The position numbers and the translations under genes were made by a program. The notes beneath the pieces were generated by a model. It saw only the letters and a program-made list of their open reading frames with translations. It was not told the DNA's origin and did not search any database. 64,000 nucleotides of DNA from Gemmatimonadota bacterium (GTDB lineage Bacteria > Gemmatimonadota > Gemmatimonadetes > Gemmatimonadales > Gemmatimonadaceae): positions 1 to 64,000 of the forward strand of contig VHBQ01000007.1 in the NCBI GenBank assembly GCA_016871855.1. The letters are read 5' to 3'. Every line of letters starts with the position of its first letter. The first letter of the stretch is position 1. Below, piece after piece: positions 41,849 to 60,933 of this stretch.

Positions 41849-41925
41849 GCCACCTCCATTCCTTTCGACAATTGTGCCTCCACGTGCGCTCAGTCGCCAG
41901 CGTTGGCACGTCGAGCATGTTTGCG

Positions 41926-41954
41926 TTGACGGTCTCTGACCGAGGGGATAACGT
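41926..41954 (+). promoter_or_regulatory. Probable promoter of the xdhD operon
   Basis: TTGACG (41926-41931), 17-bp spacer, TAACGT (41949-41954); GATAAC two bases upstream is an alternative -10. The start would be near 41961 with a leader of about 45 nt. It lies in the divergent xdhA-xdhD region, where a shared regulator could bind; no operator was recognised. Confidence 0.45.
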
Positions 41955-42004
41955 CAGTCTGGAACACCAACGACGCGGTTGTGATTCGGTGCGTCCGGAG
42001 CAAC

Positions 42005-44623
42005 ATGGCAATGGAGTTCTCACTAAACGGAACCACGCAGCGGGTTGCGCCGCGGCCCGGAGAGTCGCTTCTCGAGACGTTGCGCGAGCGCTGTGGGATC
42101 ACGTCACTCAAGGATGGATGCCGGCCGCAAGGTCAGTGTGGCTGCTGCCTGGCGCTGGTTGATGGGAATCCCAAGGTGACGTGCGCCATGCCCGCCGAGG
42201 CGGCCGCCGGCAAGACGGTGGTTACGCTCGAGGGCGTGGCTCCCGCCGAGCGCGCGTTGATTGCCAACAGCTTTGCGGCGGCCACGGGGCTCCAGTGCGG
42301 ATTCTGCATCCCGGGCATTGCGCTCCGCGCCAAGGCCATCACCGACAAGAACCCGGATCCGACCCGCGAAGCGATTGCCAAGGCGATTGACGTGCATTTG
42401 TGCCGATGCACCGGCTACGTGAAGATCGTGGACGCCATTCAACTGCTGGCGCGGGCCAAGCGTGGCGAGGCGGTTCCGGCGCCTTGCACTGACGGTCACG
42501 TGGGGCAGTCGCTCGCCCGCGTGGAGGCCGGTCGCAGCGTGCTGGGTGAGCGCCCGTACATTGACGATTTGTCCGTCCCGGGCATGCTGCACGGCGCGCT
42601 GACGCTTTCACCGCACGCGCGCGCACGAGTGAAGCGCATTGACACGACGCGGGCCCGCGCGCTCGCCGGCGTGCAGGCGGTGGTGACGGCGGCGGACGTG
42701 CCGGGTGAGCGCTGGCACGGGCTTCTCTACAATGATTGGCCGGCGTTCGTGGCGGAGGGCGAGGAGGTGCGGTACGTGGGTGACGTGCTCGCGGCGGTGG
42801 CAGCCGACGACCGGCACACGGCGCGCGAGGCGGCGGCACTGGTTGACGTGGAGTACGAAGTGCTCCCGCCCGTCCTTGACCCCGAGGTTGCGCTCGATCC
42901 CGGCGCGCCGCAGGTGAACCCGGCGCATGCCAACCTGCTCTCGAAGTCCGTCATCAAGCGTGGCGATGTGGAGGGTGCGCTGGCGTCGAGTGCGCATGTG
43001 GTGAGCGGCACGTGGGCGACGCAGCGCATCGAACATCTCTTCTTGGAGCCGGAGAGCGCCTTCGCCGAACCGCTGGCCGACGGGCGGCTGCGTCTCTGCT
43101 CGCAGGGACAGGGCGTGTTTGACGATCGGCGGCAGGTAGCGCGGCTCCTCGACATCTCCGAAGAGCGGCTCTTTGTTGAGCTGGTGCCGAATGGCGGCGC
43201 GTTCGGCGGCAAGGAAGACCTGTCGGTGCAGGCGCGCACCGCGCTCCTTGCGCACGTGACGCAGCGTCCGGTGAAGCTGACGCTAAGCCGCGAGGAGTCT
43301 ATCCGGATGCACCCCAAGCGCCATCCGATCACGATGCACTACACGGTGGGGTGCGATGCGTCCGGGCGATTGACCGCAGTGAAGGCGCGGATGCTCGGCG
43401 ATTCGGGTGCGTACGCGTCGGTGGGCGGAAAGGTGCTCGAACGCGCGGCGGGCCACGCCTGCGGCGCGTATCGCGTGGGGGCAGTGGACGTCGAGTCGGT
43501 GGCCGTCTACACCAACAACCCGCCCTGCGGCGCCATGCGTGGCTTCGGCGCGAACCAGGCGCACTTCGCCATGGAAGCGTGCATGGACCTGTTGGCGAAG
43601 AAGGCGCAGCTCGACCCGTGGGAGATGCGCTGGCGAAACGCGCTCGACGTCGGCGACCCGGTGACCACCGGGCAGATTCTCGAGAAGTCGGTGGGCATCA
43701 AGCAGACACTCGCCGCGGTGAAGGAGCAGTACTACGAAGCGAAGCGCACAGGACGCGCCGTCGGCATTGCCTGTGGCATCAAGAACAGCGGCATCGGCAA
43801 CGGCGTGGAGGAGTGGGGAAAGGCGCGGCTCGTGGTGGAGGCGGATGGCACGATCTCGCTCTACAACGGCTACACCGAGATGGGCCAGGGCTTGTTCACG
43901 GTGCTGGTGCAGTTCGCGGCAGAGGCGACAGGGCTCCCTGCGGCACGCTTCACGCCGAAGGTGAACTCCACGTTCGACCTCGGCTGCGGGCAGACGACCG
44001 GTTCGCGCGGTACGCTCTTCGGCGGGCGTGCAATGCTCTCCGCCGCCGCCAAGCTCCGGGCAGACCTTGATGCGGGTCACTCACTGGCGGATCTCATCGG
44101 CCGCGTGTATGCCAGCGATGTGGTCACGCGCGACACGACGGCGCTGGGTGCCACGGTTGATCGCGTCAAGACGCACACGGCGTATGGATTCGCCACGCAG
44201 GTGGTGATGCTCGATGCCGAGGGCCGCGTTGACCGTGTGATCGCCGCGCACGATGTGGGTCGCGTGGTGAACCCGGCGCTCTGCGAGGGCCAGATTGAGG
44301 GCGCCATCCACATGGGACTGGGCTACGCGCTCACCGAGGAGTTGCCGACGGTCAACGGGATGCCAACCACCTTCAAGCTGCGCGATCTCGGCGTGCTGCG
44401 CGCGCGCGACATGCCGGACGTCGAGGTGATCTTGGTGGAAGACCCGGAGCCCGAGGGACCGATGGGTGCCAAGGGCGTGGGTGAGATAGGTCTCGTCCCA
44501 ACGGCCGCCGCTGTCGCAGCAGCGCTCGAGGCGTTCGATGGCGTTCGCCGCATGACGCTTCCAATGCGAGATTCGCCCGCCGCGCGGGCGATGAGCGTCG
44601 GCCGCGTGCGGGTACCGTCCTGA
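42005..44623 (+). CDS. xdhD: Fused 2Fe-2S/Mo hydroxylase, XdhD type
   Basis: An 872-residue molybdenum hydroxylase joining the 2Fe-2S domain (residues ~1-165: [36 protein letters not shown]) to the Mo domain (~175-872), without a FAD domain. It matches E. coli XdhD in layout. [30 protein letters not shown] and [10 protein letters not shown] are the Moco, substrate and catalytic Glu segments. In E. coli-type clusters XdhD accompanies YgfK and SsnA and is linked to purine turnover. ATG at 42005 has GGAG 4 nt upstream; ATG at 42011 is possible. The stop overlaps ssnA (TGATG). Confidence 0.9.
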
Positions 44624-45611
44624 TGCCGGCCGGGTTTGTCAACGCGCACACGCACATTTACTCGGCGCTGGCGCCCTTCGGGATGCCCGAACCGGCACAG
44701 GCGCCCGAGAACTTTGTGCAGATCCTGGAGCGCATTTGGTGGCGGCTGGACCGCGCGCTCGACGCGCAGGCGCTGCATGCCGCGGCGCGGTGGTATGTGG
44801 CCGAGTCGCTGCGACTCGGCACGGTTGGCCTCGTGGACCACCACGAGTCGCCCGAGTTGATTGAGGGATCGTTGGACATCCTCGCCGACGCATGCCAGGC
44901 GCTGGGAATGCCAGCAGTGCTCTGTTTCGGCGCCACCGAGCGCAACGGCGGGCGGCGAGAGGCGCAGCGCGGCCTGGCCGAGTGCGCGCGGTTCATCACC
45001 GAGAACACGCGACCGCTCGTGCGCGGCGTTGTCGGTTTGCACGCGTCGTTCACGGTGTCGGACGAGACCGTGCGGGAGGCGGGCGCGTGGTGTCGCGCGT
45101 TGGGCACGGTGATGCATGTGCACGTGGCCGAGGACCGCGCCGACGTTGAAGACGCACGGCGTCGCGGCTTCCGTGGACCGCTCGAGCGCCTTGAAGCCCT
45201 TGGCGCACTGCCCTCGGGTTCGATCATGGCGCATGGCGTCCACCTTGCCGTCGAGCAGGTGCAGCACGCCGGGCGCATTGGCTGTTGGCTGGTGCAGAAC
45301 CCGCGATCCAATCGTGGCAACCGTGTTGGCTATGCGGGCAGCTTGCGCGCCAGCGCTCGCGTGGCACTCGGCACCGATGGGTATCCATCGGAGTTGGCCG
45401 CCGAGCGCGAGGCACTCATGGACGAGGCCGCAGGGCACGGGGACGACATGGACGCTGCCGCGCGGCGCCCGGATGCCGGTCACGTCCTCTTCGCCGAGCG
45501 GTTCGGGGGCATGGTGCCCACCGCGCGCGCCGTGCCCGGTGTTGACTTTGAAGCGCTGCGGGCCGAGGCGGCGGCGGAAGCCTCCCGGCTCTGGCGGCGC
45601 ATGGCGAATCT

Positions 45612-45615
<4 letters not shown>
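44623..45615 (+). CDS. ssnA: SsnA-type aminohydrolase, short form
   Basis: Metal-dependent amidohydrolase of the SsnA family, expected to deaminate or open a purine-derived ring. The metal ligands are present: NAHTHIYS (residues 7-14), [22 protein letters not shown] and [19 protein letters not shown] and [12 protein letters not shown] match SsnA closely. E. coli SsnA has about 440 residues; this one has 330. It starts 8 residues before the HxH motif and lacks the usual N- and C-terminal beta-sandwich strands, although the final WRRM is kept. The ATG shares a base with the xdhD stop. The next gene overlaps by ATGA. Confidence 0.85.
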
Positions 45616-47089
<1,474 letters not shown>

Positions 47090-47093
<4 letters not shown>

Positions 47094-48409
47094 CCGCCGC
47101 AGTGGACCGGGCCTTGCGCCTCGTGTGCTCCGGATGCGGCTGGACGTTGCCGGATACGGACGGTGTCCGTCACCCCTTCCGGTGCCCGAACGTCGGCTCC
47201 GACGACGCCGACCACATCATCACGCGGCAGTTCGACGCGCGCGGTGTCCTGGTTCCACCAAACGACGACCCCAATCCGTTCGTCCGCTATCGCGCGTCGT
47301 TCACTGCGTGGCACGCCGCTCAGGACCTCGGCATGGCCGATGCGGCGTACGTGGATCTCGTGCGGGTGCTGGACGAGAGGGTGGCCGCGGTGGACGGTCA
47401 CGGGTTCCGCGCCACGCCGTTTATGCGTGCCCGGGCGCTCGGTGAGCACTTGGATCTCGATCTCTGGGTGAAGGACGAGACCGGCAATGTCGCTGGCTCA
47501 CACAAGAGCCGGCATTTGTTTGGCATCTTGCTCTATTTGGCAGTGACGGAGCAAGGCGACCAGCCTCCGCTCGCCATCGCGAGCTGCGGGAACGCGGCGC
47601 TCGCCGCAGCGGTGCTGGCGCGTGCCGTGGAGCGTGCGCTCACGGTGTTCGTGCCTCCGCACGCGGATGCGTCGGTGTTGGAGCGACTGCACGCACTGGG
47701 GGCACGCGTTGTTCCGTGCCCTCGTGTTGCCGGGCGCATGGGCGATCCGTGCGTGCACGGCTTCCACAACGCACTCCGTGCGGGAGCCCTGCCGTTCTGC
47801 GTGCAGGGCAGCGAGAACGGCCTCACGATCGAGGGCGGCGAGACGCTGGTGGAGGAGATACTCGCCGTCGGCGATTCGCCGTTTGATCATCTGGTCGTTC
47901 AGGTGGGTGGCGGTGCGCTCGCCAGCAGTTGTGCACAAGCGTTCGCCCGTGCGGCGGCGGACGGTCGACTGTCACGCCTGCCGCGCCTGCACACGGTACA
48001 GACCGAGGGGGCGTGGCCGCTGCGGCGCGCGTGGGGGCTTTGGCAGGAGCGTCAGCGCCATACCGGAGTGTCGCCGGAGGAGGCGCTGCGGTACGCGAGC
48101 ACGCACCGCGCGGAGTTCATGTGGCCGTGGGCGGAAGAGCCACGGAGCGTCGCCGAGGGCATTCTCGACGACGAGACCTACGATTGGCTTGCCGTGCTGA
48201 GGGGGATGGCAGAGTCGGGGGGCGTGCCCGTGGTGGCGGACGAAGCGACGCTGGAGGAAGCCCACGATCTGGCGGTGGCACACACGGGCGTGGCCGTCAG
48301 CCACACCGGCTCGGCTGGACTCGCCGGCTTGCTGCGATTGCAGCGCGATGGCGTCATCAAGGCAGGCGAGCGGGTGGCTCTCGTCTTTTCGGGCGTCGAG
48401 CGGCGCTGA
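47090..48409 (+). CDS. PLP-dependent lyase, threonine-synthase-like (PLP2)
   Basis: A 439-residue fold-type II PLP enzyme. The N-terminus has a small Cys knuckle ([19 protein letters not shown], then RCPNVG) as in threonine synthases and related lyases. The Schiff-base Lys is K139 in [31 protein letters not shown] the substrate loop and [15 protein letters not shown] the phosphate loop. The GTG start overlaps the PLP1 stop (GTGA). Substrate unknown; the two PLP enzymes may act in sequence or as a pair. It ends 9 bp from convergent ygeW. Confidence 0.8.
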
Positions 48410-48418
48410 CGTCCCGCG

Positions 48419-49567
48419 CTACCCCGCGCGGCGCGGCCGCGCCTCCCTGGCCAATCGGTTTACCAACTCCGTTGGATCGGCGAATCGCGTGAGCAGGATC
48501 ATCGCCGCTACAATGAACGGTTTGTGGCCCGCCTCGCGGTACGTGTCCACGCGTGCCTTCTCGAAGACGGCCTTGCTCACTTCCCCCGTGACGCACGACA
48601 CATCGGTGACGTCGGCCGGCAGGCAGTGCATGTAGTGCGCGCTGCCTCCCGTGGTGCCGCGCATCATCGCCTCGTTGCACTCCCAGTCCTTGTGCTTTGC
48701 GTTCGTCGCCAGCGCTTCGCGCTCCAGCGCCTTCAGCGAGTCGGTCTCACCCGCATGCAGGATTCGCGTGCGTTCGCGCATGACGGCCGCCGGCGCCCAG
48801 CTCTTGGGATACACGACGTCGGCATTCTCGAACGCCGCGGCCATCGCATCGGTGACGGCGAATGATCCGCCGCTGGACGCCGCGAAACGACGGGCTGTTT
48901 CGACCGTTTCGTCCACGAGGTCATAGCCCGGCGGATGCGCGAGCACAACGTCCATGCCGAATCGCGTCATTAGCGTGATCACGCCCTGCGGTACCGACAG
49001 CGGCTTTCCGTAGCTCGGCGAGTACGCCCAGCTCATCGCGAGCTTCTTCCCCTTCAGGTTCTCAATGCCCCCGAACACCTCCACGAGGTGCGCGAGGTCG
49101 GCCAAGCTTTGCGTCGGGTGGTCGAGGTCGGACTGGAGATTGATGACCGCGGGACGCTGCATCAACACCCCTTCCCGGTGGCTCTCGGCGAGGGCCGCGG
49201 CTACTTCGCGCTGGTACTTGTCGCCTTCGCCAAGGAAGATGTCGTCACGGATACCGATGACTTCGGTGAGAAACCCGATCATCGCCGCCGTCTCGCGCAC
49301 GGTCTCGCCGTGCGCGATCTGCGATGTGGATTCGTCCAGTTCTTCCGTCATCAGGCCGAGCAGGTTGCACCCGGAGCGAAAGGCGTAGCGCGTGCGCGTG
49401 GAGTTGTCGCGGAAGATCGAGACGCCGAGGCCGGTGTCGAACACCTTGCAGGAGACGCCAGCCCGGGCGAGGTCTTCGAGCGCTTGGGCGGTATCGAGCA
49501 CGGCGCGGAGGGTGGCATCATCCTGGTCCCACGTGAGGAGGAAGTCACCGTTGTGGAGGCGGTTCAT
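48419..49567 (-). CDS. ygeW: Carbamoyltransferase YgeW
   Basis: A 382-residue member of the aspartate/ornithine carbamoyltransferase superfamily. The carbamoyl-phosphate motif is FRDNSTRTRYAF; DLDHPTQSLADLAHL gives HPxQ and YMHCLPADV the HCLP motif. SWAYSPSYGKPLSVPQG is typical of the YgeW subgroup, which forms knotted trimers. In this cluster it would run in reverse, splitting a carbamoylated (ureido) compound to carbamoyl phosphate for the carbamate kinase at 54150. It overlaps ygeY by 4 bp. Last gene of the hyuA unit. Confidence 0.9.
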   Translation of the reverse strand: MNRLHNGDFLLTWDQDDATLRAVLDTAQALEDLARAGVSCKVFDTGLGVSIFRDNSTRTRYAFRSGCNLLGLMTEELDESTSQIAHGETVRETAAMIGFLTEVIGIRDDIFLGEGDKYQREVAAALAESHREGVLMQRPAVINLQSDLDHPTQSLADLAHLVEVFGGIENLKGKKLAMSWAYSPSYGKPLSVPQGVITLMTRFGMDVVLAHPPGYDLVDETVETARRFAASSGGSFAVTDAMAAAFENADVVYPKSWAPAAVMRERTRILHAGETDSLKALEREALATNAKHKDWECNEAMMRGTTGGSAHYMHCLPADVTDVSCVTGEVSKAVFEKARVDTYREAGHKPFIVAAMILLTRFADPTELVNRLAREARPRRAG

Positions 49568-50781
49568 CGGGTGGCCTCCAGGTACGCCTGCGGGAAGGCC
49601 GCGTAGAAGCGCGCCGCGAGCGTGAGGTCATTCACGGGGCATTGGTCGTCCGGCGAGTGCGCCCAGATCTCGTCGCTCGGTCCGAACCCGATGGTCGGCA
49701 CACCGAACATCCCGGCGGTCGCGATACCGTTGGTGCTGAAGCCCCACTTCCCGACCACCGGCTTCTTCCCCAATGCAGTTTCGGCGGCGCGCACTCCGGC
49801 GAGCACCGCCGGGTGATCCTCAGGGAACAGCCAGGTCGGATAGAACTTCTTGGTTGGATACGTAAGCCCGGTGTACGAAGGCACGGCGTAGTCGAGCACC
49901 GTCACGGTGGCGCCGGCCTGAACGACGCTGTCCAGCGCTTCAATCTGCTTCACCGCGCCTTCCCATGTCTCGCCATGCGTCAGCCGCCGGTCCACGTGAA
50001 TCGTCGCGCTGTCGGCCACCGCACAGAGCGACGGCGAGGTTGAGCGGATGGCGGAGATCGTGCACGAGCCTTTCCCGAGAAACGGATCCGCTGTTGCGGC
50101 CAGCGCGTCGTTGAGCCGCTCGATGTCGGCGATGATCGGGCCCATCTTGTAGACCGCGTTGACGCCGCGTTCGGGCGCGGAGCCGTGCGCCGAACGCCCT
50201 TGCGTGCGGATTTCGATCTCCATCCGCCCTCGATGCCCGCGGTAGACGCCGAGCTTCGTGGGCTCAGTGATCACGACGACATCGGGCGCCAGGACTTTCT
50301 CGCGCAGGATGTATTGCCAGCAAAGGCCGTCACAGTCTTCTTCCATGACCGTGCCCGTGACCCAGAGCTGCACACCGTCGAGCAGGCCAAGTTCTCTGGC
50401 GATCCGCGCGCCGTAGACGGAAGCGGCAAACCCTCCTTCCATATCGCCTGCGCCGCGGCCGTAGATGATCCCGTCCTTCAGCTCGCCCTTGTAAGGGTCG
50501 CGCGTCCATGTGGAGGGGTCACCCACGCCGACGGTGTCGAGGTGCGCGTCGAGCGCAATGACGGTCTTCCCCGTCCCCACGCGCCCGAGGACGTTTCCCA
50601 TGCCGTCCACCTTGATCTCGTCGAACCCGCAGGCCTCCAGTTCGGCGCGGGCGCATGCCATGACCTCCCCTTCCTGCGTGCTCTCCGATGGGATGGCGAT
50701 CATTGCGCGGAGGAAGCGCACCATGTCCGGAGTGTACTGCGCGGCCTTTTGCGCGATGTCAGCGGTCGGAATTGGCGTCAT
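49564..50781 (-). CDS. ygeY: YgeY family M20 hydrolase
   Basis: A 405-residue di-metal M20 amidohydrolase of the YgeY group. Ligands: ALDAHLDTVGVGDPSTW, GRGAGDMEGGFAASVYG, TVMEEDCDG (Glu pair followed by Asp-Cys, a YgeY feature), VITEPTKL, and IWAHSPDDQCPV at the end. Lid domain about residues 190-305 with RGHRGRMEIEIRTQGRSAHG at the boundary. Expected role: amide hydrolysis of a ring-opened purine product. It overlaps ygfK and ygeW by 4 bp on each side. Confidence 0.9.
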   Translation of the reverse strand: MTPIPTADIAQKAAQYTPDMVRFLRAMIAIPSESTQEGEVMACARAELEACGFDEIKVDGMGNVLGRVGTGKTVIALDAHLDTVGVGDPSTWTRDPYKGELKDGIIYGRGAGDMEGGFAASVYGARIARELGLLDGVQLWVTGTVMEEDCDGLCWQYILREKVLAPDVVVITEPTKLGVYRGHRGRMEIEIRTQGRSAHGSAPERGVNAVYKMGPIIADIERLNDALAATADPFLGKGSCTISAIRSTSPSLCAVADSATIHVDRRLTHGETWEGAVKQIEALDSVVQAGATVTVLDYAVPSYTGLTYPTKKFYPTWLFPEDHPAVLAGVRAAETALGKKPVVGKWGFSTNGIATAGMFGVPTIGFGPSDEIWAHSPDDQCPVNDLTLAARFYAAFPQAYLEATR

Positions 50782-52571
50782 TGCACCAGACTCTGGTTCA
50801 CGTAGTTGATTTCGGTAGGCGCCAGCAGCGCGTCGCGCAACTGGCGCAGGATAGGTACGTACGGTCCATCGGCGGCGTCTGTCTCGTCTGTCACGCGCAC
50901 CTCCACGCCGTCGAAGCGTCCGGTGATCGCGTCGCGCTCCACGAGGATCGCGTCCCGTGGGGCGTCAGCCAACCACCGCTCGCTGCTGACGAAGAACCGC
51001 GGCTTCAGCCGGTACGGTCCGCCGTCCTCGGGGCAGAACGTATCGCAGTTCCCGCAGTCGTTGCAGAGGTCCGCAAAGTTGCCGATCTGCCGCGCCTCGG
51101 ACAGCGGCACCTCGGGCGTCGACGGCATCGCGAAGGTGAAGTTCGCGTCATTCGGACAGACCGGAATGCACTTGTCGCAGGTCAGGCAGTCGAAGAGCTT
51201 GAGCTGGCGGCCGATCTTGCGCGGCACCTTGCGGCGCGTGGCCGCCGCGTAGCGCGGATCGCCCGTGGCGCGCTCCACGTAGAGGTCGGTGTTCCGGATT
51301 TTCGCCGCGGCGAGCTCCGTCGGTCCGTCGGCGCCGTAGGCGCGCACGATGAACTCGTTGACCGACGCTGCGCCCACGACATCCATCCGCTTCTTCAGTT
51401 CGTCGAAGTAGCCCAAGGGGCGGCCGTACCCTCCGGGCTGCAGCAGATCGGTGCAGGCGGTGACCGGCACGAGTCCCAGCGCCACGGCATCGGGAAAGTT
51501 CGCGCGTTCGATTCCGGCCGAGAAGGAAATGGGGAACCGATCGCCAAAGGTGCGGCGGACGCGACGCACCAGATGCATGGCGAGGACATGCAGCGGCGCC
51601 CCCGAGAGATACATGGCCGGTTCAGTCTTCGGGAACACGTGGCGATGATTCTCGACGATCAACGTGTTGGTGAGCTTCACGCCGACGTCGAGGTCCAGCG
51701 CCCTGGCCGTGCCGTCCAGCCGATCCATGAACGCCGCCGCCTGTTCCCACTGCGTGTCCTTGGCGAACGCGTCGCCGGGAACACGCAGATCGGCGTAGCC
51801 GAGGGCATCGGTGAGGAGCGCCTGCAGCGCCGTTGCGCCGAGGAGCGTGGGATTCAGCTTTACCACGCAGGCAAGATGCCGCTCCCGCATCAAGAACTCG
51901 ACAATCTGCTCGATCTCGTGCGGCGGGCAGCCGTGGAAGGTGCTCAGCGTCAGCGTGTCGGAGAGGCGCGTCACGAAGTCGAGGTCGCGCAGGGGGCCAA
52001 GTTCTTTCGGCAACGCCCTGCGCAGGCGTTCGACGACCGCCGTGGCGTCCATCATCCCGGCAATGAAGGCCTGCACGCGCTCGCTGCGAATGCCGGCGAG
52101 GTCGTACCCGACGCTCATGTCAAAGACCGTCCGTTCAAAACCCGGCGCGAGCGCCAACTGGCCGCTGGCTTCCAGGATGCGGATGAGCATCGCCGCCTTC
52201 ACGTACTCTTCGAGCGATTCCTCCAGCGTGAGCTCCTGCGACCACTCCACGTTGTAGCCCACCGTTTGCATGTCGATGCAGGGGCGCGGGATCGTGAGGC
52301 GGTCGTTCAGCTGCACCGTCTTCAATTCGAGGATGCGGCCACCCGCGAGCCAGGCCAGGACAATGTTCTGCGCCAGCTGGGTGTTGGGACCGGCGGCGGG
52401 GCCAAACGGCGTGGCGGCGACGTGACTGTGAAAGCGGACTGAATAGTCGTGCGACGGGTCGCCGCGGACGAACTTCCGGGTGGGCAGGTCGAAGATGCTC
52501 TCCTTCGCATCCAACTCGCGCAGCATTCGCCGCACGAGCGTCGCGATGGGCATCGGCGCGAGGATTGCCAT
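50778..52571 (-). CDS. ygfK: YgfK-type iron-sulfur oxidoreductase, short form
   Basis: A 597-residue relative of E. coli YgfK (about 1030 residues). Residues ~20-430 form a dihydroorotate-dehydrogenase-like barrel (HVAATPFGPAAGPNTQLAQN, STFHGCPPHEIEQI, VVKLNPTLLG, DVGVKLTNTLIVEN, CTDLLQPGGYGR). Residues ~460-520 hold two 4Fe-4S motifs, CLTCDKCIPVCPNDANF (C462, 465, 468, 472) and CNDCGNCDTFCPEDGG (C503, 506, 509, 513). The GltD-like FAD/NAD(P) region expected for the long form is absent; no GxGxxG pyridine nucleotide fold is visible. The electron donor must then be a ferredoxin or a separate subunit. Probable role: reduction of a purine intermediate. Confidence 0.85.
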   Translation of the reverse strand: MAILAPMPIATLVRRMLRELDAKESIFDLPTRKFVRGDPSHDYSVRFHSHVAATPFGPAAGPNTQLAQNIVLAWLAGGRILELKTVQLNDRLTIPRPCIDMQTVGYNVEWSQELTLEESLEEYVKAAMLIRILEASGQLALAPGFERTVFDMSVGYDLAGIRSERVQAFIAGMMDATAVVERLRRALPKELGPLRDLDFVTRLSDTLTLSTFHGCPPHEIEQIVEFLMRERHLACVVKLNPTLLGATALQALLTDALGYADLRVPGDAFAKDTQWEQAAAFMDRLDGTARALDLDVGVKLTNTLIVENHRHVFPKTEPAMYLSGAPLHVLAMHLVRRVRRTFGDRFPISFSAGIERANFPDAVALGLVPVTACTDLLQPGGYGRPLGYFDELKKRMDVVGAASVNEFIVRAYGADGPTELAAAKIRNTDLYVERATGDPRYAAATRRKVPRKIGRQLKLFDCLTCDKCIPVCPNDANFTFAMPSTPEVPLSEARQIGNFADLCNDCGNCDTFCPEDGGPYRLKPRFFVSSERWLADAPRDAILVERDAITGRFDGVEVRVTDETDAADGPYVPILRQLRDALLAPTEINYVNQSLVQ

Positions 52572-52574
52572 CGG

Positions 52575-53927
52575 CTAGACCGGACGCCGGGCGCGAGGCA
52601 GGAACCGGCCGGCCCCCGCGACGCCAGCGAAGGCGCCGTGCTCAACGATGAGCTGGCCGCGAAGCAGCACCATGTCGGGCGCCCCCTTCAGCACCCGCCC
52701 TTCGTACGGGCTATGGTCCACACGCATGTGGTGCGTGGCGGCGCTGATGGTCTGCGCCCGCTCCGCATCCCAGATCACCAGGTCGGCATCGGAACCGGGG
52801 GCGATCGTGCCCTTCTTGGGATAGAGTCCGAAGAGCCGAGCCGGCTCCGTGGCCGTCACGGCGACGAAACGCTCGAGCGGAAGTCGCCCTGCGTCGAAGA
52901 GAAGCGCCATGCGTGTCTCGATCGTCGCTGCGCCGCCCGGCACTTGGTTGAACGCGGCGTGGCGATGCTTCTCGGCGAGCGTGAAGGGACAATGATCGGT
53001 CCCCACCGTCTGCAACTGATCCGCGAGCAGGCCGCGCCACAGACGCTCCTGTGCCCGCTCATCGCGAAGCGGCGGGCTCATGATGAAGCGCGCCCCGTCC
53101 TGCTGGTATGCGGCATCAGTAAGGAAGAGGTACTGCGGGCAGGTCTCGCCGAAGACGGGGCGGCCGCGGGCGCGCGCGGCCGCGATTTCGTCAACGGTCT
53201 CGGCCGCCGATACATGAACGATGTACAGCGGGGCACCCGCCATCTCGGCCAATGCGATGGCGCGATGTGCGGCTTCCGCCTCCACCAGCGGCGGGCGCGT
53301 GAGGGCATGCTGCATCGGCTCCGTGTGACCTGCCGCCAGCGCACGTTCCTGGAGCACCTCGATGACGCTTCCGTTCTCGGCGTGCATCATCACCATGCCG
53401 CCGTTCGTGGCCGTGGCGAGGAGCGCACGGAAGATGGCCGCGTCGTCCAGCATGAGGCGGCCGGGATAGGCCATGAAGAGCTTGAAGGTCGTGATTCCTT
53501 CGTTGACCAGCTCGTCCATCTCCCGCAGCACGGCGGGTGTGACATCGGAGACGATTACGTGGAAACCGTAATCAATGGCGGCCTTGCCGCTGGCCTTCGC
53601 CTTCCACGTCTGCACCGCTGCGTGCAGCGTGCCGCCGCGGTCCTGCACGGCGAAGTCCACGATGGTCGTCGTGCCACCCATTGCGGCGGCAATGGTGCCG
53701 GAGGCGAAGTCGTCGGCCGAAACCGCGTCACCGTACGGCATGTCGAGATGCGTGTGAACGTCCACCCCGCCGGGGATCACGAGCCGGGCCGTGGCGTCAA
53801 CCACGCGATCAGCCGATGCGGTAATTCCAGGCGCGACCTGCACGATGGTCTCGCCGTCGACGAGCACATCGGCTGCACCGGTGCCCTCAGCGGTGACCAC
53901 TACACCGTTGCGGATCAGGATTCGCAT
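52575..53927 (-). CDS. hyuA: Dihydropyrimidinase/hydantoinase (HyuA type)
   Basis: A 450-residue cyclic amidohydrolase with a binuclear metal site: VDVHTHLDMPYGD (HxH, residues ~56-60), the carboxylated Lys in GITTFKLFMAYPG, VMMHAENGSV, APLYIVHVSAAET and QTVGTDHCPF (Asp). GGTTTIVDF is another D-hydantoinase landmark, and KKGTIAPGSDADLVIWD closes the beta-sandwich. It opens hydantoin- or imide-type rings; here the ring would be a purine-derived imidazole or pyrimidine. First gene of hyuA-ygfK-ygeY-ygeW, 3 bp before ygfK and divergent from yqeA. Confidence 0.9.
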   Translation of the reverse strand: MRILIRNGVVVTAEGTGAADVLVDGETIVQVAPGITASADRVVDATARLVIPGGVDVHTHLDMPYGDAVSADDFASGTIAAAMGGTTTIVDFAVQDRGGTLHAAVQTWKAKASGKAAIDYGFHVIVSDVTPAVLREMDELVNEGITTFKLFMAYPGRLMLDDAAIFRALLATATNGGMVMMHAENGSVIEVLQERALAAGHTEPMQHALTRPPLVEAEAAHRAIALAEMAGAPLYIVHVSAAETVDEIAAARARGRPVFGETCPQYLFLTDAAYQQDGARFIMSPPLRDERAQERLWRGLLADQLQTVGTDHCPFTLAEKHRHAAFNQVPGGAATIETRMALLFDAGRLPLERFVAVTATEPARLFGLYPKKGTIAPGSDADLVIWDAERAQTISAATHHMRVDHSPYEGRVLKGAPDMVLLRGQLIVEHGAFAGVAGAGRFLPRARRPV

Positions 53928-54149
53928 GAGATGATGTCACGTCTCAACCGGAGAAGTACCACGAGGTGCTTGATCGAGTGCTTCATGCGGCAGTCTGAGC
54001 GGAGTCGAGTCTTCTTCGCCCGAGACCAAGGAGAGTATGGCGCGTGCCACGACCCGCCGCCACACGCCGGGGCGTGGCGGGGCATCGGGTGTCCGGCCAT
54101 ACTTGCACCAGTCCCATACGGCGCTGAGGATGGGCCCAGGAGACGGGTG
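53928..54149. promoter_or_regulatory. Divergent hyuA-yqeA control region
   Basis: 222 bp without a gene. A bulged hairpin (CCGCCACACGCC against GGCGTGGCGG) lies at about 54048-54080. TTGCAC at 54103 is a possible -35 for yqeA, without a good -10. The yqeA ribosome site GGAG is at 54139. No regulator site could be recognised. Confidence 0.35.
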
Positions 54150-55097
54150 ATGGTCACGTCCACGCTGGTCATTGCCATTGGCGGCAACTCACTCATCAAG
54201 GACCGGCAGCATTTGAGCGTGCCGGATCAGTACCTCGCGCTGGGTGAGACCAGCGGGCACATTGCCCGCATCATCGCGGACGGCTGGCGCGTCGCCATTG
54301 GTCACGGCAACGGACCGCAGGTGGGCTTCATCCTGCGCCGTTCCGAGCTGGCCGCGCACGAGCTGCACGAGGTGCCGCTCGACGTGTGCGACGCCGACAC
54401 GCAGGGCGCCATTGGCTACGAACTGCAGCAGAACCTGGGAAATGACTTCCGGCGCATGCGGCTTGACCGCCATGCAGTCACCGTTGTGACACAGGTGGAG
54501 GTCGATCCTGACGACCCGGCATTTCACGCGCCCAGCAAGCCCATCGGCTCGTTCATGGACGAGGCGCAGGCGCGACAACGGGTGGAACAGGATGGTTGGA
54601 ACGTGCGCGAGGACGCGGGGCGGGGCTGGCGGCGCGTGGTGGCCTCGCCACGGCCGGTGCGAATCGTCGAGGAACGTGCCATCACGTCGCTTCTGCAGAG
54701 TGGTTTCGTCGTCATTACCGTGGGCGGTGGCGGGATCCCGGTGGTCGCCGATGTACACGGCAACTTGCACGGCGTCGCGGCCGTCGTTGACAAGGACTTC
54801 GCCGCGGCGCTGCTGGCCACCGTCATTCGCGCCGACGTGTTCATGATCACGACCTCGGTGGATCGAGTGGCCCTCGACTGGGGGCGCGCAACGCAGCGCT
54901 GGATCGACCGGATGACGCTCGCCGAGGCCAAGGCTTACCTCGCGGTGGGCAGCCACTTTGCGCCGGGGAGCATGGCGCCCAAGATCGAGGCGTGCATCGA
55001 GTTTCTGGAGCGCGGCGGTCGCGAGGCCGTGATCACGAACCCGGCGAACATGGAGCAAGCACTCGCTGGCCACGCGGGGACGCGAATCGTCGCTTGA
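54150..55097 (+). CDS. yqeA: Carbamate kinase (YqeA type)
   Basis: Transfers phosphate from carbamoyl phosphate to ADP, giving ATP, CO2 and NH3: the energy-yielding end of the pathway. The 315 residues have LVIAIGGNSLIKD (N-terminal amino-acid-kinase loop), IGHGNGPQVGFILRRSELA, VITVGGGGIPVVAD and AVVDKDFAAALLATVIRADV, ending with GSMAPKIEACIEFLERGG, all carbamate-kinase signatures. The ATG at 54150 follows GGAG by 7 nt. It has its own promoter region and would use carbamoyl phosphate made by YgeW. Confidence 0.9.
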   Translation: MVTSTLVIAIGGNSLIKDRQHLSVPDQYLALGETSGHIARIIADGWRVAIGHGNGPQVGFILRRSELAAHELHEVPLDVCDADTQGAIGYELQQNLGNDFRRMRLDRHAVTVVTQVEVDPDDPAFHAPSKPIGSFMDEAQARQRVEQDGWNVREDAGRGWRRVVASPRPVRIVEERAITSLLQSGFVVITVGGGGIPVVADVHGNLHGVAAVVDKDFAAALLATVIRADVFMITTSVDRVALDWGRATQRWIDRMTLAEAKAYLAVGSHFAPGSMAPKIEACIEFLERGGREAVITNPANMEQALAGHAGTRIVA

Positions 55098-55205: not shown

Positions 55206-57695
55206 CTACCGTGCGCCGAAGTACACCATGCTCCGCGCACCAGAGCGCGCGACCACGATGTCGTTCGCGCCGTCCTTGTCGAGGTCCGCCACCGCGAACC
55301 CGTACACCACACCGTCGGCGTCGCCGAACGGCACCGGGGTGAATCGCCCGGGCGCGTCATTGAAGAACACGATCGAGCGGCCGCCGGTGTAGCCCACCAG
55401 CACGTCCGCGCGGCCGTTGCCGTCCACGTCGTGCACCGTCAGGGCGTACGGACGCGCGCCCGCAGGACCGAGCAGCACGGGCGCGGCGAACGCGCCGCCG
55501 CGCAATCCCGTCATCGTCATCGCGCTGCCGAGTTCATCGATCGCCGCAAGGTCCATCAGCCCATCACCATCGAAGTCGGCCGCGTACGCGCTGCGCATGG
55601 TGGCGTTCGCCGGACCGAATGGCTCGCGACGCGCGAATGTGCCGCGTCGATCATTGAAGAGCACGTAGCCCTGACCTCCGTCGCGGTGCGGTACGATCAG
55701 ATCGAGCGCCCCGTCCTGGTTCACATCGGCCATCGTGATCGTCGTGGCGGATCCCCTCGACACCTCCGTGCACGTCTCAGCGATGCGACCGTCGCTGCGG
55801 CCGAGGCAGAGAAAGCTCGGCGTCGGCTCGCGGCCCCCGCGATTCGCCAACACCGCATCCGGGATGCCATCGCCGTTCACGTCACCCACCGCCACGTGCC
55901 GGGTGGTCCACTCCGGGCGCCCGAACGTCGAGAGCAGCGTGAACCGCCCCGATCCGTCGTTGCGATACACCTTCTTGGCATCCGGCGAATCATTGCTGAC
56001 CACGAGGTCCAACGCGCCGTCGCGATCGAGGTCCACGAGGACGCCGGAATACGATCGGTCGGCGGCGGTGTCCACGGGGACCGCGGCGCGAAACGTCCCG
56101 TTGCCGTTGCCCAGCCTCACCAGGTTGCGCAACGGCCAATGGCGACCCTTCACGAGGACGATATCGAGGTTGCCATCGCGGTTCACGTCGCCCACGCTGG
56201 CATTCGCTGAGGTGAAGGCGGAATCCTCAAGTGCGAGGGCGCGGGCGAAGGTCCGCGCACCGTGCGCACCGGCCGATGCGGGAGTCGCGGAGGTCGGACG
56301 CGTCCGCCGCGCGCTGCACTTGATCTCGACCAGCGCGGCCGGCCGCGGCATCGCGGTCACGGCGAGCGTCGCGCGCGCCGGCGGATTGACCGGGAAGAAC
56401 GTGAGGTACTCGGCGTTCATCGCGGCGTAATCCGCCATGTCCTTCAGGAACACCGTACACTCCGCGACGTCCGCCATCGTCGCGCCGGCGGACATCAACG
56501 CCGTCCGAATGTTCGTCAGCGTCTGTCGCGTCTGCGCGGCCGCTCCACCGTCGACAATGTCCTGCGTGCCGGGCTTGACGCCCGTCATCCCAGAGACGAA
56601 CACCCAATCGCCGTCGCGGATCGCGACTGAATACGCCGGGACCAGCGGCGAGAGGCCGGGTGGGTTGATCACGTCGCGGCCACTGGTGCCGCCGCCGGCC
56701 GGCTGCGCCCGTGCCGCGGAGCGCGCGGGCACGATGATCGGTACGAACCACTCGGGCGAGATCGTCCGGCTCTCCGGCGAGGCCGCGCGCACTTCGTCGA
56801 GGAACTTGGCCCCGTCCGCGAGCGCGGCGGCGCTCGGCTTCGGGTTTCCATACCCATCGGCGTGGCTCGGGATCACGAGCGCCGGGTAGCCGAGCGCGCG
56901 CATCAGCCGTCCGGTGAAGTCGTAAATCTCAAGGCGTTGGCTGTTGGCGCCCACGAGGGCGATGTCGGGCCGGAGCCCTTGCATCTCCCGTTCGATGAAG
57001 TTCATCGACCCCATCATCAGCACTTCGTGGCCGCTCATCCGGAGCAGATACGCGAAGCTCTCCCCTTCCTGATAGTCGCGGCGCCGGAGCGGTGCCTTGA
57101 GTCCGCGCGGGGCGTTGCCGGCGATGTCGCGGCCGTTGCTGAAGTAGCGCTTGTCGTCCAGCGCGCTGTGGATGCTGGGGACCACGCGCAACGAGAAGTC
57201 GTCGAACTCGTAGTCCTCGCCCCCGCGCACGGTGATGAGCTGTGGCTCCGCGACGGCGTACGCGCGTGCGAGGTTGGCGACGGTCTCGCTGCCGACGATC
57301 GCCGCGCCCGTCTTGCGGGCGATGTAGCCGGCGTCGAGCGCATGATCGGAATGCCCGTGCGTGATGAGGATGTAGTCCGCGCGGCTCACGTGCTGGTTGA
57401 TGAGCGCGGTATCCGGCACGTACGGCGCGTTCGGATCCGGACCGTCCGGGGTCGCCCCCGGACGCCAGCGCGCGAACTGCGTGAGGAACGGGTCGACGAG
57501 TATGACGCGCTTGCCGTCGGTGATCTCCCAGCCGGCATTGCCGAGGTAGGTGAGCCGGAGTTCACCGGGCGCGAGCGTTGCCACGGGCGGTCTTGCCGTC
57601 GGCTGATCGCTGCGCGTGGCGGGCTGTTGCGCGAAGGCGACGGCGGCGACGCTCGATACGAGTCCGACCGAGATGCTGCGAAGGGTGGTGGTCAT
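55206..57695 (-). CDS. Secreted metallo-beta-lactamase / RidA / FG-GAP propeller fusion
   Basis: An 829-residue exported protein with a signal peptide (residues 1-22). Residues ~40-300 are a metallo-beta-lactamase fold: ILITHGHSDHALDAGY (112-118 HxHxDH), His in PSIHSALDD and VIPSHADGYG. Residues ~341-463 are a RidA/YjgF domain (VFVSGMTGVKPGTQDIVDGG, ECTVFLKDMADYAAMN, and the substrate Arg in NPPARATLAV). Residues ~480-829 carry seven Ca-binding FG-GAP motifs (DVNRDGNLD, DLDRDGALD, DVNGDGIPD, DVNQDGALD, DFDGDGLMD, DVDGNGRAD, DLDKDGAND), which fits one seven-bladed propeller. The whole is a single open frame. RidA removes reactive imines or enamines in the cytosol; an exported, fused form is unusual. 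Substrate unknown. Confidence 0.85.
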   Translation of the reverse strand: MTTTLRSISVGLVSSVAAVAFAQQPATRSDQPTARPPVATLAPGELRLTYLGNAGWEITDGKRVILVDPFLTQFARWRPGATPDGPDPNAPYVPDTALINQHVSRADYILITHGHSDHALDAGYIARKTGAAIVGSETVANLARAYAVAEPQLITVRGGEDYEFDDFSLRVVPSIHSALDDKRYFSNGRDIAGNAPRGLKAPLRRRDYQEGESFAYLLRMSGHEVLMMGSMNFIEREMQGLRPDIALVGANSQRLEIYDFTGRLMRALGYPALVIPSHADGYGNPKPSAAALADGAKFLDEVRAASPESRTISPEWFVPIIVPARSAARAQPAGGGTSGRDVINPPGLSPLVPAYSVAIRDGDWVFVSGMTGVKPGTQDIVDGGAAAQTRQTLTNIRTALMSAGATMADVAECTVFLKDMADYAAMNAEYLTFFPVNPPARATLAVTAMPRPAALVEIKCSARRTRPTSATPASAGAHGARTFARALALEDSAFTSANASVGDVNRDGNLDIVLVKGRHWPLRNLVRLGNGNGTFRAAVPVDTAADRSYSGVLVDLDRDGALDLVVSNDSPDAKKVYRNDGSGRFTLLSTFGRPEWTTRHVAVGDVNGDGIPDAVLANRGGREPTPSFLCLGRSDGRIAETCTEVSRGSATTITMADVNQDGALDLIVPHRDGGQGYVLFNDRRGTFARREPFGPANATMRSAYAADFDGDGLMDLAAIDELGSAMTMTGLRGGAFAAPVLLGPAGARPYALTVHDVDGNGRADVLVGYTGGRSIVFFNDAPGRFTPVPFGDADGVVYGFAVADLDKDGANDIVVARSGARSMVYFGAR

Positions 57696-57817: not shown

Positions 57818-59284
57818 ATGCGACACCACTACGGGTGGCTGGCGGCCGCCGTGCTGTTGATCACTCCAAGCCCCTCCGCCGCACAACGACCGCATTGGTA
57901 CCAGAAGGATTTCTCCGCCGCCGAGCTCGCCGGGCGACGCGCCAAGGTACTCGACGCCATCGGAGCGCAAGGCATCGCGCTGGTGCAAGGCGCCAGCGGA
58001 GTGCCCGGATTCAGCGTGTTCCGGCAGGCCAACGACTTCTACTACCTCACGGGGGTGGAGTCGCCGCACGCGTACCTGCTGCTGAATGGCCGCTCGCGGA
58101 GTGCGACGCTGTACTTGCCGCACCAGGACGCGGCGCGTGAACAGGGCGAGGGCGCACTCCTCTCCGCCGAGGACGCGTCGCTCGTGCGGGAACTCACGGG
58201 CGTCGAGCAGGTGCGTGCGCTCGAGAAGCTCGCCGAGGATCTCGTCGGGGCCAACCTGATTCGGCCACCCGCATTCACGCTGTACACGCCGCTCAGTCCG
58301 GCCGAGGTTGGCAACGATAGCCGCGACGAACTCCTCGCTGGCCAGGCCCGTGCGGCCAGCGATCCGTGGGACGGTCGTCCCAGCCGTGAGGCGCACTTCG
58401 TGCGCCTGGTGCGGGAGCGGTTTCCACAGTTCGAGGTGCGCGATCTGTCGCCGACACTCGACGCGATGCGCGTCATCAAGAGCCCGGCCGAGGTGGCGCT
58501 GATTCGCGAGGCGACGCGCGTCGCCGGACTCGGCATCATCGAGGCGATGCGGTCCTCCGCGCCGGGCGTGTACGAGTATCAGTTGGATGCCGCGGCCAAG
58601 TACGTGTTCCATCTCCACGGTGCGCGCGGCGATGGCTATTCGTCCATCATCGGCGGCGGCGCCAACGCCTTTCTGGGTCACTATTTTCGCAAGAGCGATG
58701 TACTCAAAAGCGGCGACTTGGTGCTGATGGACTACGCGCCGGACTATCGCTACTACACCAGTGACGTCACGCGCATCTGGCCGGTGAATGGCAGTTTCAC
58801 GGCGCCTCAGAAGGCGCTGTACGAGTACATCGTCGCGTACCGCGATGCGCTCTTTCGCTACATCAAGCCGGGTGTCACGGCGGATGAGGTGCTCGATCGC
58901 GCCGCGACCGAGATGCGGTCGTACCTCGCGGGCAGGCGATTCGACTCGGCGGCGCACCAGCGGGCCGTTGAAGCGGGCGTCCTGTTCCGTGGGCACTTCC
59001 AGCATCCCGTCGGCATGGCGGTGCACGACGTGGGCCGCGTGCGGGGAGTGCCGCTGCAGGCGGGGATGGTGTTTACGATCGATCCGATGATCTGGATCCC
59101 GGAGGAGCGGCTCTACATCCGGATCGAGGACGTCGCGCTCGTCACCGCGGACGGCGTCGAGAACCTCAGCGGCTTCGTGCCCTCGCGCGTCGCCGATGTG
59201 GAACGCACGATCGCGGAGGCCGGGGTCATCCAACTGCGCCCTCCAGTGCTGTCGGCCCCCAACCAGAGGAACCCCGAGCGATGA
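57818..59284 (+). CDS. Exported M24 peptidase (Xaa-Pro aminopeptidase family)
   Basis: A 488-residue protein with a signal peptide (MRHHYGWLAAAVLLITPSPS). Pita-bread fold: N-terminal creatinase-like domain to about residue 240 (VPGFSVFRQANDFYYLTGVE) and catalytic domain after it. Metal ligands are Asp in LVLMDYAPDYRYYTSDVTRI, His in FQHPVGMAVHDVGRV, and Glu in IDPMIWIPEERLYIRIEDVA. It should release N-terminal residues next to proline in the periplasm or outside. The ATG at 57818 is used because the signal peptide begins there; GTG at 57767 is less likely. Its stop overlaps the M1 gene start (ATGA). Confidence 0.9.
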   Translation: MRHHYGWLAAAVLLITPSPSAAQRPHWYQKDFSAAELAGRRAKVLDAIGAQGIALVQGASGVPGFSVFRQANDFYYLTGVESPHAYLLLNGRSRSATLYLPHQDAAREQGEGALLSAEDASLVRELTGVEQVRALEKLAEDLVGANLIRPPAFTLYTPLSPAEVGNDSRDELLAGQARAASDPWDGRPSREAHFVRLVRERFPQFEVRDLSPTLDAMRVIKSPAEVALIREATRVAGLGIIEAMRSSAPGVYEYQLDAAAKYVFHLHGARGDGYSSIIGGGANAFLGHYFRKSDVLKSGDLVLMDYAPDYRYYTSDVTRIWPVNGSFTAPQKALYEYIVAYRDALFRYIKPGVTADEVLDRAATEMRSYLAGRRFDSAAHQRAVEAGVLFRGHFQHPVGMAVHDVGRVRGVPLQAGMVFTIDPMIWIPEERLYIRIEDVALVTADGVENLSGFVPSRVADVERTIAEAGVIQLRPPVLSAPNQRNPER

Positions 59285-60933
59285 CTCTGTGGCATGCGTC
59301 CGCGACGGCGTGCGCGGCGCTCATCGGTGCCCTGTGGTCGCCGGCGCCGCGGGCCGACACCTACCCGAAGAACCCGGGCATCGATGCGGTCCACTACGCG
59401 TTCACCATCGAGCTCTCTGATACCACGGATGCCATCGCGGCCGCGCTGGCACTCGACGTGCGCTTCGCGGCGGCCGGACAGCGCGCGGTGCGGCTCGATC
59501 TGATCAACGCCAGTGCGGCACAGGGCGGGAAGGGAATGACGGTGTCCGCCGTCACGGTGGATGGCGTGCCGGTCGCCTTTACGCACGCGAACGACGAGCT
59601 GGTGATCCCGTTGCGTGCGCCGTCGACGCTCGAGCAGCGCGTGCGTGTGGTCGTGCGGTATCGCGGCATCCCGGCGACCGGGCTCAAGATCGGCAACAAC
59701 AAGTACGGCGATCGCACGTTCTTCAGCGACAACTGGCCCGACAAGGCGCGCCATTGGTTGCCGACGATCGATCACCCCTCCGACAAGGCGACGAGCGAGT
59801 TCATCGTGACCGCCCCCAATCAGTATCAGGTCGTGTCGAATGGGTTGCAGATCGAAGTGACGGATGTCCCCGGCGGACGCCGCCGCACGCACTGGAAGAA
59901 CTCGGTGCCGATCTCGCCGTGGCTGTACGTGCTGGGGGTGGCGCGTTTCGCGATGCAGCGCGTCGACACCTTCGAGGGTAAGGCGATCGAGACGTGGGTG
60001 TACGCGCAGGACCGCGATGCGGGCTTCGCGGACTTCGCCTCGCCGACCAAGCAGGTGCTCGCCTTCTACAGCGACTATGTCGGGCCCTTCGCGTATGAGC
60101 GGCTGGCCAACATCCAGTCGAATAGCGTGAGCGGTGGCATGGAGGCCGCCTCGGCGATCCTGTACAGCGAGCGCTCGGTCACCGGAACGCAGAGTGTCCG
60201 CTGGCGCAATGTGGTGATCCACGAGATCGCGCATCAGTGGTTCGGCAATGCGGTCACGGAGGGCGACTGGGACGACGTGTGGCTGAGCGAGGGGTTCGCG
60301 ACGTACTTCACCCTGCTGTACATCGAGCACGCGTACGGGCGGGATGAATTCCTGCGTGGCCTCGCCGCGAGCCGGCAGAGCGTGATGGCGTATTCCGCAC
60401 AGCACCCGACCTACACGGTGGTGCACCGCAATCTGGCGCGGATGGAGGACGTCACCAGCTCGCAGACCTATCAGAAGGGAAGCTGGATCCTGCACATGCT
60501 GCGCGGCGTGATGGGGGCGGACGCGTTCCGACGCGGCATTCGGAGCTACTACCAGCGCTACTTCAACGGCACCGCCTCCACGGCCGACTTTCGGCGCGCA
60601 ATGGAAGCGGCGGCGGGGCGCGACCTCGGCTGGTTCTTCGAGCAGTGGCTGTACGCGCCGGGGACGCTCAAGATCGCTGGCACGTGGACCTACGACGCGC
60701 CCACGCAGCAGCTCCGGCTGACCCTCGACCAGCAGCAAGGCGACGGGCTCTTTCGGATGCCCATGGAGGTCGGGGTGTACCTCAAGGGCCAGGACACGCC
60801 CATCCTCCATCGTGTCGAGGTCTCGGCGCAGTCGCAGTCCTTCACCTTCGCGGTGGCAGCGGAGCCGGCGGCCGTGCGGCTCGATCCGAATCAGTGGGTG
60901 CTGATGGAGGCCAGTGTGGAGCGGCGACGGTAG
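59281..60933 (+). CDS. Exported M1 family aminopeptidase
   Basis: A 550-residue zinc aminopeptidase with a signal peptide (TACAALIGALWSPAPRA). The active site is VVIHEIAHQWFGNAV (HExxH) followed by WLSEGFATYF (third ligand Glu). SGGMEAASAILYSER corresponds to the GxMEN substrate motif, here GGMEA. The shorter length implies a missing or reduced C-terminal helical domain, as in several bacterial M1 enzymes. It is co-translated with the M24 peptidase, so the two probably degrade extracellular peptides together. Confidence 0.9.
   Translation: MTLWHASATACAALIGALWSPAPRADTYPKNPGIDAVHYAFTIELSDTTDAIAAALALDVRFAAAGQRAVRLDLINASAAQGGKGMTVSAVTVDGVPVAFTHANDELVIPLRAPSTLEQRVRVVVRYRGIPATGLKIGNNKYGDRTFFSDNWPDKARHWLPTIDHPSDKATSEFIVTAPNQYQVVSNGLQIEVTDVPGGRRRTHWKNSVPISPWLYVLGVARFAMQRVDTFEGKAIETWVYAQDRDAGFADFASPTKQVLAFYSDYVGPFAYERLANIQSNSVSGGMEAASAILYSERSVTGTQSVRWRNVVIHEIAHQWFGNAVTEGDWDDVWLSEGFATYFTLLYIEHAYGRDEFLRGLAASRQSVMAYSAQHPTYTVVHRNLARMEDVTSSQTYQKGSWILHMLRGVMGADAFRRGIRSYYQRYFNGTASTADFRRAMEAAAGRDLGWFFEQWLYAPGTLKIAGTWTYDAPTQQLRLTLDQQQGDGLFRMPMEVGVYLKGQDTPILHRVEVSAQSQSFTFAVAAEPAAVRLDPNQWVLMEASVERRR

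Follow-up and report, generated by a model that had tools for sequence, protein, structure and literature searches.

A predicted exported fusion of a ThnS-like metallo-beta-lactamase-fold domain, a RidA domain and an FG-GAP propeller as part of a recurrent module in Gemmatimonadota

Mammalian renal dehydropeptidase cleaves dehydropeptides as well as carbapenems. In the uracil pathway, RutB and RutC are separate cytosolic proteins, and RutB is not a metallo-beta-lactamase-fold (MBL) enzyme. Their reactions are consecutive, with a hydrolase step followed by a Rid step on the released enamine (PMC8113886). Arg105 is essential for imine hydrolysis by RidA (PMC4433059), and the RutC R104A variant gave the corresponding result (PMC8113886). 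Among MBL-fold proteins, the human enzymes have Asp221 and His84 as motifs, and both are missing from the beta-lactamases (superfamily review, PMC4819959); the B3 beta-lactamase set consists of H116/H118/H196 and D120/H121/H263 together with Ser221 (PMC5531557). ThnS reportedly hydrolyses imipenem comparably to NDM-1 and penicillin G and cefotaxime more slowly, does not hydrolyse nitrocefin, and also acts on ascorbate and nucleic acids (PMC8115136). The opening of a carbapenem yields an enamine/imine (PMC6754457).

The window analysed here is a stretch of 64,000 nucleotides from a Gemmatimonadota bacterium (contig VHBQ01000007.1). The original prediction had placed at 55206-57695 a single frame joining a signal peptide, an MBL, a RidA and an FG-GAP domain. 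The coordinates were right, the gene lying on the minus strand with its ATG at 57695 and its stop codon at 55208-55206, and the 829-codon composition was confirmed by the ORF and by Pfam matches to Lactamase_B_3 (residues 47-250), Ribonuc_L-PSP (354-462) and, in the C-terminal part, FG-GAP_3 (4.3e-39). The features are collected in Table 1. A signal-like stretch was also present at the N-terminus of the homologues. The GC content by codon position (0.68/0.52/0.87) presented the pattern of a coding gene. Purifying selection acts on all three domains: dN/dS relative to two homologous fusions was 0.07-0.15 in each of them, against 0.5-0.6 for the linkers together with the N-terminal region. Structure prediction, proposed earlier as a check, was performed with AlphaFold, which folded all three domains confidently (mean pLDDT 86.6) and left their mutual placement uncertain (pTM 0.50). 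Foldseek matched all three to solved structures, namely UPF0173/UlaG-type MBLs, RidA/RutC, and the propellers of ITFG2 (KICSTOR), CRTAC1, PVL lectin and integrin alpha.

Table 1. Location of the fusion gene, its parts, its neighbours and related arrangements in other loci
Feature	Sequence	Position	Strand	Basis or remark
Whole fusion gene, 829 aa	Window	55206..57695	(-)	ORF and Pfam; kept in L022 and L024
Predicted Sec-type signal peptide MTTTLRSISVGLVSSVAAVAFA, followed by QQ; residues 1-22	Window	57630..57695	(-)	By eye
ThnS-like metallo-beta-lactamase-fold domain, residues 41-325	Window	56721..57575	(-)	
HxHxDH metal motif, residues 113-118	Window	57342..57359	(-)	H176 and H278 are further ligand candidates
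GSMN, residues 229-232, where G-Asp221 usually stands	Window	57000..57011	(-)	Invariant in the family
RidA domain, residues 345-464	Window	56304..56663	(-)	
R441, equivalent of the essential RidA Arg105	Window	56373..56375	(-)	Alignment; PMC4433059
Seven-bladed FG-GAP propeller, seven DxDxDG-type loops, residues 483-829	Window	55209..56249	(-)	
M24 aminopeptidase P family, signal-like N-terminus, divergent neighbour	Window	57818..59284	(+)	
M1 aminopeptidase neighbour	Window	59281..60933	(+)	
PF14588-type Rid, then MBL	L144	17604-19004	(+)	
PF14588-type Rid, then MBL	L156	9341-10768	(+)	
PF14588-type Rid, then MBL	L159	9727-11007	(-)	
Triple RidA, signal-like N-terminus, directly beside a same-family MBL	L158	1876-3024	(-)	

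A search of other genomes for the same domain order, also proposed earlier, revealed MBL–RidA–FG-GAP intact in two further Gemmatimonadota genomes from independent assemblies (L022, 82% identity; L024, 77%) and split over two contig ends in genome G279 (L128/L129). In the MBL tree the window fusion and its homologues in L022, L024, G279 and L021 formed one clade of five with a support of 100/98. The L021 homologue (genome G018) carries a frameshift and misses a propeller stretch (at 4368-4423), and is a pseudogene or an assembly error. A permuted order, FG-GAP–MBL–RidA, was found as a single continuous ORF in three genomes (L028, L029, L031). On the single-contig chromosome of G077, RidA–FG-GAP stands behind a signal-like stretch, with an MBL match absent at E 1e-40 (L130). 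Two other apparent orders, MBL–FG–RidA in L021 and RidA–MBL in L043, arose from overlapping match bounds and are not true.

Separate genes in relatives, which had been named as the sign of a chance read-through, were indeed present, yet they are adjacent, and the fusion is kept in other genomes; the outcome is thus mixed and adds to the evidence for a functional link. MBL-RidA was found with FG-GAP downstream (L023, L025) or convergent (L030, L033), separate MBL and RidA genes with a divergent FG-GAP (L038, L040, L042), RidA adjoining FG-GAP (L046, L146-L148) and, in another family of the class, MBL adjoining FG-GAP (L150, L151). Where both members of a pair were found in a genome, they were fused or at most 1.5 kb apart in 14/14 genomes for MBL-RidA, 15/25 for MBL-FG-GAP and 14/22 for RidA-FG-GAP; these counts use no more than two matches from each genome and come from a non-exhaustive match list, fragmented assemblies and related, non-independent genomes, and are a guide rather than a statistic. 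It is common for MBLs from other families of the class to lack an adjoining Rid gene (L150, L151, L161), which weighs against the reading proposed below.

In deeper lineages (L144, L156, L159) the order is reversed, a PF14588-type Rid being fused in front of an MBL of the ThnS-like family, and the gene next to the L159 fusion is FG-GAP. By eye, an extra domain was not apparent in the large FG-GAP open frames of the deeper relatives. In L158 the Rid partner is a triple RidA, which has lost the Arg in its third repeat; triple RidAs as such are already known (PMC4433059). Given that these deeper lineages join the MBL family to other Rid types, the MBL–Rid pairing evidently had more than one origin, or else persisted through an exchange of its Rid partner. 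Two further arrangements were observed. A 982-aa fusion of a PQQ propeller and an FG-GAP propeller (L136, 6592-9540, plus strand) is convergent with an MBL of the ThnS-like family. Outside Gemmatimonadota, an MBL-RidA fusion occurs in a Sphingomonas (L034, 6001-7299, plus strand), and its rarity (1/200 genomes of the bacterial family to which this Sphingomonas belongs) suggests horizontal transfer.

Since the relatives fuse the parts otherwise or keep them adjoining, the three modules are very probably functionally linked and cooperate outside the cytoplasm. The export and functional link that had been proposed, and also the idea of two successive steps, are supported by the conservation of the fusion, by its permuted form and by the adjoining separate genes. 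On comparative grounds, the window protein is a real, conserved fusion, predicted to be exported, and part of a recurrent three-component module. The domain families are known and their combination is apparently undescribed: no description of MBL-RidA fusions or of exported Rid proteins was found in the literature searched, the coverage of which was partial.

The metal site of the hydrolase was only partly as predicted. The HxHxDH motif is present, whereas Asp221, the metal-bridging residue of most MBL-fold enzymes, is replaced by S230. The alignment showed that the domain also keeps His196 and His263 and is without His84. Throughout the MBL family of the module, the His84 place is N, A or T (N in the window protein), an invariant GSMN stands instead of GDT, and the six other metal ligands are retained; genuine UPF0173 proteins of related genomes carry both His84 and the Asp221 of GDT. 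In the alignment, the window MBL thus carries the B3 ligand set with its Ser221. A search for sequence kinship to B3 beta-lactamases gave nothing beyond chance-level matches along the HxHxDH stretch, the best at E 0.2. The sequence kinship lies with the UlaG/UPF0173-like branch, the nearest solved relatives being UPF0173 enzymes, and the best fold match was the UPF0173/PRK00685 protein TM1162 (PDB 3x2y; TM-score 0.83, normalised to TM1162). Membership of UPF0173 itself (NF001911) was rejected, at 61.6 bits against a cut-off of 144; UPF0173 enzymes have His84 and Asp221 (GDT), and the window MBL has neither.

The best plasmid homologue of the window MBL (40% identity, BLASTP 5e-56) is encoded on the S. 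cattleya plasmid pSCAT, flanked by Nudix and S58-peptidase genes and near B12-radical-SAM, Asn-synthase-type, aldehyde-dehydrogenase and PhyH genes. The pSCAT sequence record is unannotated at this place; the gene context and the plasmid named in PMC8115136 identify the homologue as ThnS of the thienamycin cluster. In the tree, ThnS fell within the module MBL clade on a 100/100 branch, apart from UPF0173. The 40% identity extends over 287 aligned positions and includes the same six metal ligands; both proteins are without Asp221 and His84 and have an exported-type N-terminus, and position 221 is Thr in ThnS and Ser in the window MBL. ThnS is a single-domain protein from a biosynthetic cluster of Streptomyces cattleya, whereas the window MBL is fused, and no Rid or propeller partner was seen among the genes neighbouring thnS on pSCAT. 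This level of identity leaves the substrate unfixed, because ThnS is promiscuous. The altered metal site and the ThnS kinship, both missed in the original prediction, favour amide/lactam over lactone chemistry.

The substrate Arg claimed for the RidA domain was located at R441. R441 and E457 align with Arg105 and Glu120 of RidA, and both were conserved in all aligned module members having the positions, the triple RidA of L158 being left aside. The domain presented the Rid fold and matched PF01042 with 95.6 bits; it scored below the cut-off for the archetypal detoxifying Rid (TIGR00004; 87.8 against 106.25 bits) and below that for RutC. The fold and the two equivalent residues are common to the RidA and RutC deaminases, from which the window domain differs in its fusion and predicted export. 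M370, T371, E412 and K459 are pocket residues typical of the module Rids, and suggest a particular substrate. The fusion RidA is not the sole Rid of its genome, given four further RidA-family genes. The standalone RidAs of the module have lipobox-like or Sec-like N-termini and are often predicted lipoproteins. It is common in Gemmatimonadota for a standalone RidA to begin with a Sec- or lipoprotein-like stretch (L007-L013, L015, L018, L020), and the exported Rids may form a larger group that has been overlooked. A disulfide as a mark of exported RidA was considered and dropped, as Cys413 and Cys460 also occur in control RidAs, most of them themselves exported.

A pattern scan bore out the count of seven calcium-type motifs in the propeller, with exactly seven D-x-[DN]-x-[DN]-G-x-x-D matches, at 503, 555, 605, 657, 707, 756 and 804. 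The seven-bladed fold and calcium-type loops are shared with CRTAC1, ITFG2, PVL lectin and integrin alpha, from which a KGRHW motif (residue 516) sets the window propeller's own family apart; a sequence match in the PDB was not found at 0.001. Judged from the loop motif, the propeller would bind calcium, and it may bind a surface or the substrate, as had been suggested.

The M24 neighbour has homologues close to the module in L033/L137 and L025/L133, and the M1 neighbour in L038, L040, L042, L126 and L133. M24, M1 and M28 aminopeptidases were found near the module in several loci, the aminopeptidases there being exported. L042 holds a cis-3-hydroxyproline dehydratase that has a homologue in L040, and the window contains an L-serine dehydratase-like gene. 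The metabolic neighbours vary among loci and none is universal; this context agrees loosely with a hydrolase acting before a Rid enzyme. Two kinds of neighbour with twin-arginine-like starts were also observed. A spermidine dehydrogenase (L022, 3796-5694, plus strand; E 6e-150 to SpdH in the PDB) begins the list, encoded 237 bp upstream of the fusion most similar to that of the window. Class-V aminotransferase-fold proteins, with periplasmic PvdN as their best NCBIfam match, below its cut-off, are encoded near RidA or Rid-MBL genes (L048, 1668-2951, plus strand; L144, 6745-7974, minus strand).

The window also holds, at 39274-55097, a selenium-type purine catabolism cluster with a Se-dependent-type xanthine dehydrogenase, YgeW, YgeY, a YgfK-like protein (597 aa against 1012 in the model, with a score below the cut-off), dihydropyrimidinase and carbamate kinase. 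Elsewhere, Rid genes cluster with carbamoyl-phosphate genes (PMC4433059). A link of the fusion to the adjacent cluster (ygeW, ygeY, ygfK, carbamate kinase) was rejected as coincidental, because the recurrent neighbour families of other module loci do not come from it.

Hydrolysis of an N-acyl enamine amide frees an enamine/imine, and RutB-RutC provide the precedent of a hydrolase feeding a Rid deaminase, an analogy of logic. We therefore propose, with a probability of roughly 0.4, that the exported ThnS-type MBL opens an N-acyl enamine amide or lactam, that RidA hydrolyses the released enamine/imine and that the propeller docks the enzyme. The fusion would be an exported enzyme with its three domains belonging to one conserved extracytoplasmic module. 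Its MBL, a metallohydrolase of the ThnS type whose metal site resembles that of beta-lactamases, would cut the amide/lactam bond, the candidate substrate being a dehydropeptide or a carbapenem-like lactam, as carbapenems amount to dehydropeptides in cyclic form. The RidA domain, of a kind that is trimeric in solved Rid proteins, would convert the freed product to a carbonyl and an amine, and the calcium-type loops of the propeller would hold the enzyme to a substrate, surface or partner. What we infer here comprises the trimer, the reactions and the order in which they take place, the substrate and the role of the propeller. The chemistry of a hydrolase followed by a Rid step is plausible and an extracytoplasmic nitrogen compound, as originally predicted, would fit as the substrate; RidA is not known to act on cyclic imines such as those derived from carbapenems.

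It is unlikely, in our estimate, that the two enzymes have separate jobs and are only co-localised by the fusion, RidA clearing extracytoplasmic imines made by other enzymes (amine/polyamine dehydrogenases, Tat-exported PLP enzymes) and the MBL performing, for example, lactone hydrolysis. The apparently Tat-exported spermidine dehydrogenase beside the nearest homologue, the PvdN-like proteins near L048 and L144, and the clustering of amine oxidases with Rid genes (PMC4433059) are what such a division would predict, but these neighbours do not recur in most loci, and the repeated partnership with the same MBL family is left unexplained. Antibiotic detoxification, in which a secreted carbapenemase and a RidA destroying its reactive enamine/imine product protect against natural carbapenems, appears quite unlikely. 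It draws on the ThnS kinship with the B3-like metal set, on imipenem hydrolysis by ThnS and on the enamine/imine nature of carbapenem products; however, the ThnS evidence is a single study with slow end-point assays, further resistance genes were not recognised beside the fusion within the window, and the wide vertical retention in Gemmatimonadaceae together with the peptidase neighbours resembles metabolism. We regard as improbable a Rid domain serving mainly as a trimerisation scaffold that multiplies hydrolase and propeller, its catalysis being irrelevant. Solved Rid proteins are trimers (PMC4433059) and multivalent propellers would bind more tightly, but the conservation of R441 and E457 speaks against this role, separate adjacent RidA genes are harder to explain as scaffolds, and in L158, where the partner is a triple RidA, fused MBLs would not be brought together as a trimer. 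Chance read-through, a frameshift or an assembly artefact, for which the frequent separate genes in relatives and the frameshifted L021 propeller might speak, is ruled out by the recurrence of this order, with 77-82% identity, among independent assemblies, by the well supported clade and by the purifying selection on all domains.

Rid proteins have been studied as cytosolic guards against reactive enamines and imines. The repeated joining of an exported Rid to one type of metallohydrolase indicates that such compounds probably also arise outside the cytoplasm, and points to the MBL partner as an enzyme that may produce them. A wider reading, which we hold tentatively and on balance doubt, is that Gemmatimonadota repeatedly assembled an extracytoplasmic module in which a carbapenemase-type hydrolase and a Rid enzyme on the same particle open a lactam or dehydropeptide and hydrolyse the resulting enamine/imine. 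This would be the first extracytoplasmic Rid function in the literature searched, and would point to dehydropeptide metabolism as one root of ThnS-type carbapenem hydrolysis. Through the kinship of its hydrolase with an enzyme that opens carbapenems, the module offers a way to test whether the environmental carbapenemases of this branch come from dehydropeptide metabolism and whether their lactam products are processed further.
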